64,000 nt of DNA from Chloroherpetonaceae bacterium. GTDB taxonomy: Bacteria; Bacteroidota; Chlorobiia; Chlorobiales; Thermochlorobacteraceae. Both the position numbers and the translations under genes were made by a program. The stretch lies in the NCBI GenBank assembly GCA_033763895.1, contig JANRJQ010000010.1:66146-130145 (forward strand), written 5' to 3'. This document shows, piece after piece, positions 10,346 through 63,061 of the stretch (its first letter is position 1; each line of letters begins with the position of its first letter). The notes under the pieces are model-generated. The model was not told where the DNA came from and ran no database searches. It worked only from the letters and a program-made list of their open reading frames with translations.

Positions 10346-11284
10346 ATGAAAATCACGATTGATCAACATTCGGGCTTTTGTTTTGGTGTGCAGTTTGCCA
10401 TTGAAATGGCTGAAGGTGAATTAAGTGAAAGCGGTCATCTTTATTCTTTGGGCGATATCGTTCACAATGCCGTAGAAGTTGAGCGCTTAGGAAGGATGGG
10501 GCTTAAAACCATCTCCAAGGAAGACTTTTCCAAACTTGAAAACACGAAGGTTCTGATTCGTGCCCACGGCGAACCGCCCGAAACTTATCAATACGCGATG
10601 GATCATAACATCGAACTCATCGATGCCTCTTGCCCGGTGGTGCTGAAACTTCAACGCCGCGTGAAAGATTTTTATGATAAAGGATATCAAGTGCTGATTT
10701 ATGGGAAGAAAGATCACGCGGAAATGATTGGCGTCAATGGCCAATGCCGTGGCGAAGCCATATTGATTAAATACGCAGACTTGCACGACCCCGCCGAAAT
10801 CGCACCAATCAACTTCACAAAAAAGACCGTGCTCTTCTCCCAAACCACGCAAGACACTAAAGGCTTCTATGAATTAAAGGCCAATCTCGAAAAACTTTTT
10901 GCCGAAAAAAACGCCGCGAAAAATTTCGATGCCGAAGCAACGCTCGCCGAAGCCGCAGATTTCTTAGCCAAAGATACCATCTGCCGTCAAGTCTCAAATC
11001 GCGATGAAATCCTCAAAGATTTTGCGAAAGAACACGAGGTTATCGTCTTTGTCGCCGGTAAAAAAAGCTCCAATGGAAAAGTCTTATTTGGTATCTGCAA
11101 AGAGAATAATCCCAAAACTTTTTTTGTAGAAAATGAAAATGAACTGCAATCGGCGTGGTTCGTTAATGAAACGGGTAACCCTGTAGAAACTGTGGGCATT
11201 TGCGGCGCAACCTCAACGCCAATGTGGCAGATGGAAAAAGTCAAAGAAACGATTTCCGAACGCTTTTCTCCCGTTTCAATCTGA
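10346..11284 (+). CDS. ispH: 4-hydroxy-3-methylbut-2-enyl diphosphate reductase
   Basis: Last enzyme of the MEP (non-mevalonate) isoprenoid pathway: reduces HMBPP to IPP and DMAPP using a 4Fe-4S cluster. The 312 residues cover the whole family length. Cluster-ligand cysteines are visible as Cys12 in HSGFCFGV, the Cys of DASCPVVLKL and the Cys of DTICRQVSNR. Other family signatures are the RAHGEPPE and GKKDHAEMIGVNGQC segments and the C-terminal GATSTPMWQMEKV. ATG 10346 puts Cys12 in its usual place. The gene stands alone: the Kelch gene ends 67 bp upstream, a candidate -7 box lies in between, and an intrinsic terminator follows. Confidence 0.96.
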   Translation: MKITIDQHSGFCFGVQFAIEMAEGELSESGHLYSLGDIVHNAVEVERLGRMGLKTISKEDFSKLENTKVLIRAHGEPPETYQYAMDHNIELIDASCPVVLKLQRRVKDFYDKGYQVLIYGKKDHAEMIGVNGQCRGEAILIKYADLHDPAEIAPINFTKKTVLFSQTTQDTKGFYELKANLEKLFAEKNAAKNFDAEATLAEAADFLAKDTICRQVSNRDEILKDFAKEHEVIVFVAGKKSSNGKVLFGICKENNPKTFFVENENELQSAWFVNETGNPVETVGICGATSTPMWQMEKVKETISERFSPVSI

Positions 11285-11306
11285 TTCATTTTTTTCGTGA
11301 TAAATA

Positions 11307-11339
11307 GGGTTGCAATCGTCTGCGATTTGCAGCCCTTTT
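11307..11339 (+). terminator. Rho-independent terminator of ispH
   Basis: A stem of GGGTTGCAATCG with CGATTTGCAGCCC (one bulged base, one G-U pair) encloses a TCTG loop and is followed by TTTT. It starts 22 bp after the ispH stop, before the repeat array begins. Confidence 0.75.
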
Positions 11340-11411
11340 CTATTTAAGAAACAAAAACTTCACCCCAATCAGCATTCCCAAAGAAGATTCCCTCTCAATT
11401 CAACGCATCAT

Positions 11412-11939
11412 TCAATTCCGGTCAAACTTCGCTCGAAGGTTTTTACTTCAAAATTGAAGCAAAAACATTCAACGCTGAACCTCAAAGCGTCGATTTTGAA
11501 CCACAAAGGCGCGAAATCGAAGCTTTTTGAATAAAATTTCATACCGAAAAATTGAAAAATTCGACCAAATTGGTTTGATTTTGAACCTTTTTGCTTCAGT
11601 GTTGAAGCATAAAGAGAAAAAGTTTCATGTTTTTTACTGAAAATTGAAGGTTTAAGGTCGAATATTGAATATTTGAGGTAAATGAACGAGTGTTTAAGGT
11701 GGATCATTGAGTGTTAAAGGGTGATAATTGAATGTTAGAGGTGGATGAATCAGTGTTTGAGGTAGATGAATAAGTGTTTAAGGTGGATCATTGAGTGTTA
11801 AAGAGTGATAATTGAATGTTAGAGGTGGATGAATGAGTGTTTGAGGTGGATGAATCAGAGTTTGAGGTGGATTAATGAGTGTTTAAGGGTGATGAATGAG
11901 TGTTTGAAGTGGATGATTCCACCTTTAAGGTTGGTAGAG
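11412..11939. repeat. Degenerate 21-bp tandem repeat array (about 25 units)
   Basis: This gene-free convergent spacer (ispH ends 11284, solute-binding gene ends 12027) is filled by 21-bp units. The best-preserved block, 11646-11918, has 13 units close to GAGTGTTTGAGGTGGATGAA(T). Examples are units at 11688, 11709, 11730 and so on at exact 21-bp steps to 11898. Upstream, at 11412-11645, the units are much more diverged, but a TTGAA-like pentamer recurs at 11454, 11475, 11496, 11517, then (after one 1-bp shift) 11560, 11581, 11602, 11644, 11665. Twenty-one bases is seven codons: on the minus strand the older part reads as a heptapeptide pattern like FIHLKHS. No frame is open across the whole array because several units contain stops. 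No family recognised. 11940-12026 shows nothing further. Confidence 0.9.
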
Positions 11940-12026: not shown

Positions 12027-13718
12027 CTATTTGAATTCCCATTCATGCAGGTTAAAAAGCGTCATCAGCATATTCATTTTCACGCCTTTCAATTTTTTGC
12101 TGACGCCCTCCAATTCATCGAAGTAATAGAGAAATGTCCGCGGCTGCTCTTCGTGAAGTATGGCTTGGAAGCGATGCCACAGTTGCTTTTCATTTTCAGG
12201 CGTTTGTGGGAGAGCAAGTTTGGCAATAATGTCATCAAGTTCTGAATTCTGAAATGCCGATGAATTAAAGTTATTTCGTTCAAAGTCTGAGCCCCACATT
12301 ACCAATTGAAAGGGCAGCGTTTCCGCGCCAAGTCCGGCAATTGTTGCATCATATTGCCACGTGTTCTGACCTTTATTCCAAAGCACGGTTTCAACAAATT
12401 CAAGCTTGCAATCAATGCCAATGTCCTTCAGGTTTTGTTGAATAATAGTGGCGGCATAAGAGCGGCGGGCGTTTCCGGTTGGCGCAATCAGTTTGAACGA
12501 AAATGCTTTTCCTTCCTTTACAAGAATGCCGTTGCTGCCCGCTTTCCAACCTGCTTCCGCGAGCAACGCCTTGGCTTTTTGCGGGTTGAATTCATATTGA
12601 TGAAGGGTGGTATCGAGCAAATATTTGTATGCCGGTGAAAGGGAGGTATTCACAATCGTCGCGTGTTCTGCCCGCATAAACCCATCAACAATGGCTTCGC
12701 GGTTGACGGCATAAGTCATTGCTTGTCTTACTTTCTTATCGCCAAAGAAAAAATTCGGAAGAATTTTTTTTCCGTTTCGATAAGCCTCGCCATCAATTGT
12801 AAGCCAAACGATGCTATCGAAAAAGCGATTGCGAACTGAGATGACTTGAATCTCGGGAGATTCCTTTTCCAATCGTTCTGCATCTGGCGGTGCGATTCCG
12901 CCGCTTGCCATCAACACATCGGCACTTCCCGATTTCAGCGCAGTAAGCCGCGTGGTGTATTCGGGAATCACTTGAAACTCCACCCGCGAAAGCTTTGCCG
13001 GATGTGGCAATACGCTTGTTTCATTTGGTACCAAAACTAATTTCGATTGTCTATCCCACTGCATCACTTTGAACGGCCCGGCAGAAAGAATCGGAAGTTC
13101 CGATGACTTTGCTCTGAAATCGCGCGGTGCAACTGATTCATAAACATGTTTTGGAATAGGGAGTAAATCATAGAAGTGATCAAAGAAGATAGCTTCGGTG
13201 AGTTGCTTTGAAAAGCTTAGGGTGATCACGGTGTCCGAATCAATTTGAATGGATTTTTCAAAATCGATTTCACCTGTGGAAGTCCGAAGAAAATCGCCGA
13301 TGTACTGCTGGCGAGTGCTTGTGACATCGGGGTTGCCATAAAGCCTATAAGAGAAAGCCAAATCGTGCGCCGTTACTTTTTTTCCGTCGCTCCAATAAAC
13401 ATCATTTCTTAAGACGAGCGTCACTCGTTTCCCGCCTTCCGAAAATTTCCAAGAGGCGGCAAAAGCGGGTTCAAAAGTGAGCGACCCGCTCTCTTCATCA
13501 TAATTGCGATAAAAAAGAGTTGGGTAAAGAAGGTTGCAAACTTCGCGTGAAATTCCCAGTTGAATAATCAATGGATTGAGATGATCGAAATCGGTTCCAA
13601 TTGCAATTACCGCGGTTGAACGGGTTGATTCAACCCCGTGGTCTGAATTTTTTTTGCATCCCGTTAAAGATGAAAGGAAAATCAGAAATAAGGTTGCGAG
13701 CCGTGTGAATTGTTTCAA
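12027..13718 (-). CDS. ABC transporter solute-binding lipoprotein, family 5 (peptide/nickel type)
   Basis: A 563-residue extracytoplasmic binding protein of the oligopeptide/dipeptide family (SBP_bac_5). The frame extends upstream to 13832, but the TTG at 13718 begins a typical lipoprotein signal (KQFTRLATLFLIFLSSLTGC), so I place the start there. Family features include the early DHLNPLI segment, AASWKFSEGGKRVTLVLRND and YWSDGKKVTAHDLAFSYRL, the VRQAMTYAVNREAIV motif and PQKAKALLAEAGW. No permease or ATPase genes are adjacent, so it is an orphan here; the transported solute cannot be predicted. It is divergent from the TPR-kinase gene at 13885, leaving about 165 bp for two promoters. Confidence 0.9.
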   Translation of the reverse strand: MKQFTRLATLFLIFLSSLTGCKKNSDHGVESTRSTAVIAIGTDFDHLNPLIIQLGISREVCNLLYPTLFYRNYDEESGSLTFEPAFAASWKFSEGGKRVTLVLRNDVYWSDGKKVTAHDLAFSYRLYGNPDVTSTRQQYIGDFLRTSTGEIDFEKSIQIDSDTVITLSFSKQLTEAIFFDHFYDLLPIPKHVYESVAPRDFRAKSSELPILSAGPFKVMQWDRQSKLVLVPNETSVLPHPAKLSRVEFQVIPEYTTRLTALKSGSADVLMASGGIAPPDAERLEKESPEIQVISVRNRFFDSIVWLTIDGEAYRNGKKILPNFFFGDKKVRQAMTYAVNREAIVDGFMRAEHATIVNTSLSPAYKYLLDTTLHQYEFNPQKAKALLAEAGWKAGSNGILVKEGKAFSFKLIAPTGNARRSYAATIIQQNLKDIGIDCKLEFVETVLWNKGQNTWQYDATIAGLGAETLPFQLVMWGSDFERNNFNSSAFQNSELDDIIAKLALPQTPENEKQLWHRFQAILHEEQPRTFLYYFDELEGVSKKLKGVKMNMLMTLFNLHEWEFK

Positions 13719-13884
13719 GGTGGTGCAAAAATAAGTTTCGTATTGAAAGATAAATTGACAAGTGTGAAGATAATTTCTTCCCCGGCGTTCAAAAAAGAAA
13801 ACGTGTAAGATTTGAACCCATACGAAATTCAAGTCTCACAAATTTGACTAAATTATATTCAACTGCATCAAGCGTTAGAATGGA

Positions 13885-62095: not shown

Positions 62096-63061
62096 ATGGC
62101 AAAAAAATCATCTTCACAAAAGCCAACTTTGAAAGTGACGAGCAAAAAATCACCTGCCCCAAAAAGGAATCAACTGAGAACCTCAGAGCGCGAGTATCAG
62201 GCTCACTCAAAAGAGAATTTGGAGAAAGAAGGGTTTCAACAGTTGCCTATTTCAACGATTCAAAAGATTGAAGTAACAAAAAGTGAACCAATTGAAAGAG
62301 ATGCCGACTTTCCCGCTGATATCAATCCCTCTAATATCATTTTCCAAAATAATGGAAATGCTGAAACATCAACTTTAGTTGAGCAAGTAGAAACAGAGGA
62401 GCTTGAAGAGACAATTGAACTTCCAAAAGAAGTGATTGAAATTCAAAAAGAAGCTGAAAAAGAAAAACCGAGTTCAAGAGAGGAAGATTATGCGCTTATC
62501 GACCTTACTCGAGGCGAAGATGACTTTAAGCGGAATCAGTCATACAAAAGACTTTTAAATAAATACCGTAGTCCCATTTATAACCTCATTCTAAAAATTG
62601 TTCACGACCCCAATGAAGTTGAAGATTTGGTTCAAGAAACTTTTTCAAAAGCATTTAATTCTCTTGCAAATTTTAACAAAGAATTTGCTTTCTCAACTTG
62701 GCTATATCGAATCGCAACCAATAGCAGTATCGATTTTTTACGAAAAAGAAGGTTAAAAACATTTTCAATTGATAATCCTATCAAAACGAAAGATGATGAA
62801 TACACAATGGAAATTCCGGATTCATCCTCAGAGCCCGGAAGAAATGTGATTCAAGGACAGCGAGACGCACTAGTTCGAGAAGCCATAAAGCAATTGCCTG
62901 AAAAATATAGAAAGGTGATTGAGATGAGGCATCTCTCTGAGCGTACTTATGAAGAAATCGCGGAAGACCAAAACCTTCCACTGGGCACAGTAAAGGCGCA
63001 TATTTTTAGAGCACGCGAAATGCTTTACAAGTCTCTTCGAGATAAACTTCGAAACTATTAA
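62096..63061 (+). CDS. ECF-type RNA polymerase sigma factor with long N-terminal extension
   Basis: A 321-residue sigma-70 family protein. Region 2 begins near residue 155 (LNKYRSPIYNLILKIVHDP, VEDLVQETFSKAFNSL, FAFSTWLYRIATNSSIDFLR) and region 4 near 265 (AIKQLPEKYRKVIEMRHLSE, ERTYEEIAEDQNLPLGTVKA, then HIFRAREMLY). There is no region 3, as expected for extracytoplasmic-function (ECF) sigma factors. ECF proteins are usually 170-220 residues; here ~150 extra residues precede region 2, Lys/Ser-rich at first, then Glu-rich (VEQVETEELEETIELPKEV). ATG 62096 is the only plausible early start. No anti-sigma gene is adjacent: the tRNA lies upstream and an asparaginase-type gene downstream, after a terminator. 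Confidence 0.92.
   Translation: MAKKSSSQKPTLKVTSKKSPAPKRNQLRTSEREYQAHSKENLEKEGFQQLPISTIQKIEVTKSEPIERDADFPADINPSNIIFQNNGNAETSTLVEQVETEELEETIELPKEVIEIQKEAEKEKPSSREEDYALIDLTRGEDDFKRNQSYKRLLNKYRSPIYNLILKIVHDPNEVEDLVQETFSKAFNSLANFNKEFAFSTWLYRIATNSSIDFLRKRRLKTFSIDNPIKTKDDEYTMEIPDSSSEPGRNVIQGQRDALVREAIKQLPEKYRKVIEMRHLSERTYEEIAEDQNLPLGTVKAHIFRAREMLYKSLRDKLRNY

Follow-up and report, generated by a model that had tools for sequence, protein, structure and literature searches.

A 21-bp phased array in a Chloroherpetonaceae genome as a possible orphan copy of a gene-array element of Bacteroidota chromosomes

What kind of sequence fills the spacer between ispH and a convergent solute-binding protein gene in a Chloroherpetonaceae bacterium, where about half a kilobase keeps a 21-bp period? 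The original prediction, made from the letters alone, offered three ideas: the fossil of a heptad-repeat gene, a curved-DNA or protein-binding array, or a self-expanding satellite. We followed them up in the window (the whole 64,000-nucleotide stretch of DNA), in the remainder of the 3.55 Mb genome and in other genomes of the phylum. The host shares its family with Candidatus Thermochlorobacteriaceae GBChlB and had no congener among the relatives searched. The array in the window is referred to here as array W.

Results

Structure of array W

The predicted 21-bp phased array at 11412-11939 was confirmed by both TRF and autocorrelation, with about 24 units against the about 25 originally counted. 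Units in register run from about 11431 to 11934 (11410-11430 is possibly one more), and the only 1-bp slip lies near 11525-11566, where it had been placed. At 11672-11916 TRF found period 21 (11.7 copies) together with a higher-order period of 84 (88% matches). Autocorrelation at lag 21 was 0.714 (z 14) in the right half and 0.446 (z 5.2) in the left half (11412-11645), where a peak had been anticipated; the latter value was matched by no lag of 3-69 in 1000 shuffles. Multiples of 7 were likewise elevated. The register print showed the units to be contiguous, without spacers, and a CRISPR array, with its diverse spacers, was set aside on that ground. Pfam matches on either side (Table 1) confirmed the setting as a convergent spacer, with ispH on the plus and the SBP_bac_5 gene on the minus strand. 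Conservation of this neighbourhood was not found in relatives. Elsewhere in the window, at 62414-62453, we noted a two-copy tandem repeat of 21 bp, ATTGAAATTCAAAAAGAAGTG.

Twenty-one base pairs had been read as two helical turns, and rightly so, because AA/TT steps in array W showed one strong peak, at 10.5 bp, and their power at 10-11 bp exceeded that of every sampled 528-bp window of the same genome. With regard to dyad symmetry, the left half differed from column-permuted arrays (z 3.0, p 0.01). The right half was weak at period 21 (z 1.6, p 0.07) and gave z 3.5 when taken as 84-bp units. The 99-codon minus-strand frame that had been pointed out does exist, without a Pfam match; it is partly expected, since 21 is a multiple of 3 and a single unit without stops is enough to keep the frame open throughout the array. 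No database match tying array W to a known family, which the original prediction had named as grounds for refutation, turned up.

Table 1 Features of the array W locus and sister arrays of the same genome
Feature	Position	Strand	Evidence or sequence
ispH (LytB), flanking gene, outside the element	10346..11284	+	Pfam LYTB 1.2e-77
ispH intrinsic terminator, between ispH and array W	11306..11345	+	GGGTTGCAATCG-TCTG-CGATTTGCAGCCC-TTTTCTATTT
Older, diverged half of W; 1-bp slip near 11525-11566	11431..11645	-	Autocorrelation, dyad test, register print
Self-complementary units in older half	11431..11645	-	e.g. CTTCAAAATTGAAG, GCTTCAGTGTTGAAGC
Younger half of W, 84-bp higher-order repeat	11646..11915	-	TRF, autocorrelation, register print, leave-one-out profile
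Younger-half consensus, head orientation	11646..11915	-	TCCACCTCAAACACTCATTCA
G-rich end box, candidate degenerate copy	11907..11935	+	15/27 fixed bases, expected end and strand
Palindrome inside degenerate end box	11921-11931		ACCTTTAAGGT
Family 5 extracellular solute-binding protein gene, flanking, outside the element	12027..13832	-	Pfam SBP_bac_5 8.5e-67
Array A	C10:851k (L083)
Array B	C4:883k (L098)
Array C	C14:270k (L109)
Array D	C7:335k (L110)

Sister arrays and their common framework

Used as a direct DNA query, array W matched only itself in its own genome and nothing in 40 relatives, an empty search that we attribute to sequence not being the conserved feature. The proposed consensus search succeeded only in another form: a spaced pattern (TTGAA every 21 bases) and a profile recovered four further intergenic arrays of the same genome (A-D), making five of one family, together with one array in the relative G003. 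Over the 70 units of arrays A-D and W, the fixed positions are T1, A4, T7, A11, T14 and A17, a framework that is its own reverse complement, and all five arrays have this register and palindromic framework in common. Within the host genome the profile model scored well at W and A-D only, in a search of the best 150 of 981 candidate places, so that weak further arrays may escape it. Because W had been in the training set of this first model, a leave-one-out profile was built from arrays A-D alone; it gave W a score of 36.6, whereas the highest score across both strands of 400 kb of other sequence was -27.3. The units of arrays C and D can be paired one to one, with three more in D. The body of array B is oriented opposite to that of array A while their end boxes share one orientation, as though the body had been inverted, and the gene beside array C (L109:1878-2492), Crp-type regulator-like, is split across two or three frames.

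A G-rich box (family form AAGTGGGAGGGGGTACTTCCGAAGTGGGG) lies at the distal end of arrays A-D and of arrays in G094, G098 and G200, and all matches of at least 20/27 in the 1.9 Mb searched fall at array ends. The copy in array W is weak by score, its 15/27 standing beside an 800-bp null mean of 14.3. It would be unrecognisable alone, and its tentative assignment rests on position and on the resemblance of units -1 and 0 to those of the sister arrays.

A small protein family beside phased arrays

Array A lies 3' of a gene for a 159-aa protein. In G003, a different genus, the array has the same position beside a partial copy of this gene (71% identical), and phased arrays of differing sequence also stand 3' of homologues in G002 and at other places in the host genome. 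Of the 394 genomes and 170 genera of the phylum searched with a three-sequence profile, 30 and 21, respectively, contain the protein family. Its members are about 155 aa long and mostly acidic (median pI 5.3), with the conserved core LTPxERxxxxKMxDK...FV and DT...GSEAY..AL..Y. Pfam, NCBIfam, PHROGs, PADLOC and the PDB gave no meaningful match, and no DNA-binding domain was recognised in the family proteins. The best PDB match (E 6e-4) covers a short piece of a helical-repeat protein; the remaining weak matches are helical as well, from which our guess is that the fold may be all-helical.

The family genes are chromosomal and lie amid unrelated ordinary genes. Phage and viral-contig collections contained no relatives, and plasmid collections only one, a gammaproteobacterial megaplasmid gene without an array. 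This member, on plasmid pTs417 of Ca. Thiodictyon syntrophicum (L178:2914-3381), is 38% identical, lacks a phased array in the 263 bp on its 3' side, and was perhaps transferred from a Bacteroidota/Chlorobi neighbour. One genome, G346, carries five paralogous family genes (L152, L179-L182), several of them just downstream of T9SS sorting-tail genes; near the family overall, T9SS-tail genes show a modest excess only.

To quantify the association, 53 gene records were scored, reduced to 49 distinct genes after dropping repeats (L194, L198 and two in L196), and arrays were sought within 600 bp of each gene at z above 4, with periods of 18-66 allowed. A significant array lay 3' of the gene in 34 of the 49 and 5' in three, while 12 had none on either side within that distance. 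The best periods were all 21, 42, 43, 44, 63 or 64 bp. Background non-coding arrays number about one or two per 400-464 kb, as estimated from sampled stretches: 464 kb of the host genome yielded A and W only, 400 kb of G098 two weak arrays, and 400 kb of G009 one weak array. Array sequence varies among genera, phase and dyad symmetry recur, and the G-rich box is common to several genera. A separate intergenic 21-bp array, TTGAAATCCCTTTCCCCCGGG, occurs at L104:1610-1760 in a Chlorobiaceae genome (G015) without a detected family gene, possibly as an independent case.

An intrinsic terminator was found within 130 bp of the stop codon in 20 of the 34 genes (1.1 expected), so that the message would usually end ahead of the array; L083 and L160, at least, among these 20 have a terminator-like hairpin within the array proper. 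When tested against column-permuted arrays, in which period and composition are preserved, 22 of the 36 arrays of the family showed dyad symmetry at p <=0.05 (median z 2.6). Five control arrays (four coding heptads) gave dyad z below 0.7; heptad-coding arrays of the relatives G001, G003 and G007 served here. Among dyad mismatches, G-U (211) was not favoured over A-C (218), and RNA-strand structure was set aside as the source of the symmetry for lack of this bias. Both strands fold equally well as RNA, although the folding z-score is not specific by itself, two controls being low too. Dyads without G-U bias, together with equal folding of the strands, make the symmetry look like a property of double-stranded DNA. 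The 10.5-bp harmonic leads the AA/TT spectrum in just 14 of the 36 arrays.

The full element thus consists of a gene of about 155 codons, often an intrinsic terminator, and then about 0.15-0.6 kb of units phased at 21-22 bp, which are most often dyad-symmetric and in several genera end in a conserved G-rich box. Neither near array W nor anywhere in the 64-kb window was a gene of this family or its relic found, so we call W an orphan array and not a full element.

Discussion

A proposed orphan protein-binding lattice

Our preferred reading takes array W for a partly decayed orphan copy of this two-part element of Bacteroidota chromosomes, the Chlorobi side included, and for what is probably a helically phased protein-binding lattice. 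We give this a little less than even odds (about 0.45). Among the three ideas first put forward, a curved-DNA or protein-binding array agrees best with the 10.5-bp AA/TT phase, the dyads and the recurrence beside one protein family. The array would work as double-stranded DNA; gently curved, it would present two-fold symmetric candidate sites in a row, all facing alike, on which the neighbouring protein, or a partner, may load cooperatively, by analogy with iterons and centromere-like arrays. Protein and array sequence would drift while phase and symmetry stay, and orphan arrays could be either extra sites for the same protein (serving auto-regulation, chromosome organisation or anchoring) or remnants of lost copies.

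Arrays of that kind (parS, parC, iterons) are found mostly on plasmids or near origins and work with known Rep or Par proteins. They resemble the present family in being helically phased rows of sites, here putative, beside a binding-protein gene, but the family is chromosomal, its protein is acidic and it carries no name. The acidity of the protein and its lack of a recognised DNA-binding domain count against a lattice, as do the weak right-half dyads of array W, the 12 arrayless genes among 49 and the minority of arrays in which 10.5 bp leads.

On a wider scale, and still more tentatively, these observations may describe a widespread new two-part system of Bacteroidota: a small acidic protein would co-diverge with a phased palindrome lattice beside its gene, the lattice ending in a G-rich box and orphan lattices acting as further sites for chromosome anchoring, silencing or self-control. 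Our search of the open-access literature found no description of such a gene-array element. A nameless protein family tied to arrays in 37 of 49 genes, with sequence changing while two-turn phase and symmetry recur, would be an unusual form of conservation. Many of the 21-bp repeats without a name in genomes of Bacteroidota could be accounted for by the element, and it offers a direct experimental handle, since one purified protein and one array could reveal whether it is a DNA lattice.

Alternative explanations and known systems

The alternative that survives best, unlikely as we consider it, is a minisatellite within a miniature mobile element, whose arrays would have spread as functionless repeats with the gene as cargo or as a chance neighbour. 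BrickBuilt of Porphyromonas gingivalis, an intergenic minisatellite/MITE with 23-nt repeats and terminal inverted repeats (PMC4596501), is the closest described repeat. It is like the W family in that its short-unit intergenic arrays occur within one phylum, number several per genome, vary in copy number and have distinct end segments (a leader and a tail), and it too is found near T9SS-tail genes. The dispersal of intergenic copies with an end box in common, the unit-by-unit agreement of arrays C and D and the higher-order repeats of 84 and 42 bp are consistent with such an origin. However, BrickBuilt units are 23 nt and of one sequence, with no linked protein family described, whereas the W family has mostly 21-bp units with dyad symmetry, varies in sequence and lies beside one protein gene; the 23-nt unit is absent from array W, whose TRF periods are 21 and 84. 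Cargo or chance would not predict that arrays of differing sequence are linked to the same protein family in many genera. Neither terminal inverted repeats nor target duplications were noticed on informal inspection, and the protein family's absence from phages and viral contigs, and near absence from plasmids, likewise argues against mobility.

It is also conceivable, if improbable, that array W is a neutral satellite which slippage or unequal exchange enlarged in a tolerant gap, its phase an accident of the seed unit. The lineage-specific homogenisation of the right half beside a decayed left half would fit, and the W copy itself gives no sign of selection. The self-expanding satellite of the original prediction keeps only its growth component, visible in the 84-bp higher-order repeats of the right half; it leaves unexplained why one register and framework are kept at five loci and why 21-22 bp recurs among arrays unrelated in sequence.

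Quite improbable is an RNA element, in which transcription of the array would supply the protein with repeated small RNAs as partners, after the manner of type III toxin-antitoxin systems or the guides of TIGR-Tas. In type III systems (ToxIN, CptIN) the repeats precede the toxin gene, are about 34-48 nt long and act as RNA. The layout of a small protein gene with short tandem repeats and a terminator between them is shared, and the family arrays fold well as RNA, but they follow the gene, have 21-bp units and are equally symmetric on both strands, and the family protein matched neither ToxN, CptN or TenpN nor other known toxin families in Pfam, NCBIfam and PADLOC. TIGR-Tas likewise pairs a single protein with an array downstream of the Tas gene, in which half-units alternate and some variants are palindromic (PMC12045711). 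The family differs in that a Pfam scan of 40 proteins found no Nop domain, HNH and RuvC domains were also not found, and the arrays are without box C/D motifs (box C in just 4 of 539 units), their units repeating instead of carrying diverse spacers. Both systems thus share the protein-plus-array layout and fail on the defining features tested; Rfam gave no match, and the terminator that usually separates gene and array also speaks against an RNA element.

Finally, a fossil heptad-repeat (coiled-coil) gene is extremely improbable despite the 99-codon frame and the apparent coding heptad arrays of three relatives, as the fixed positions span two codon phases in palindromic arrangement, stop codons interrupt most frames of arrays A and B, whose open frames run oppositely relative to the end box, Pfam gave no match, and coding 21-bp arrays are without dyads. 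Those TTGAA-phased 21-bp arrays, in L099 (G001:C32), L100-L102 (G003) and L103 (G007), read as coiled-coil heptads such as DEMKDFK, and two of the G003 arrays sit at contig ends.
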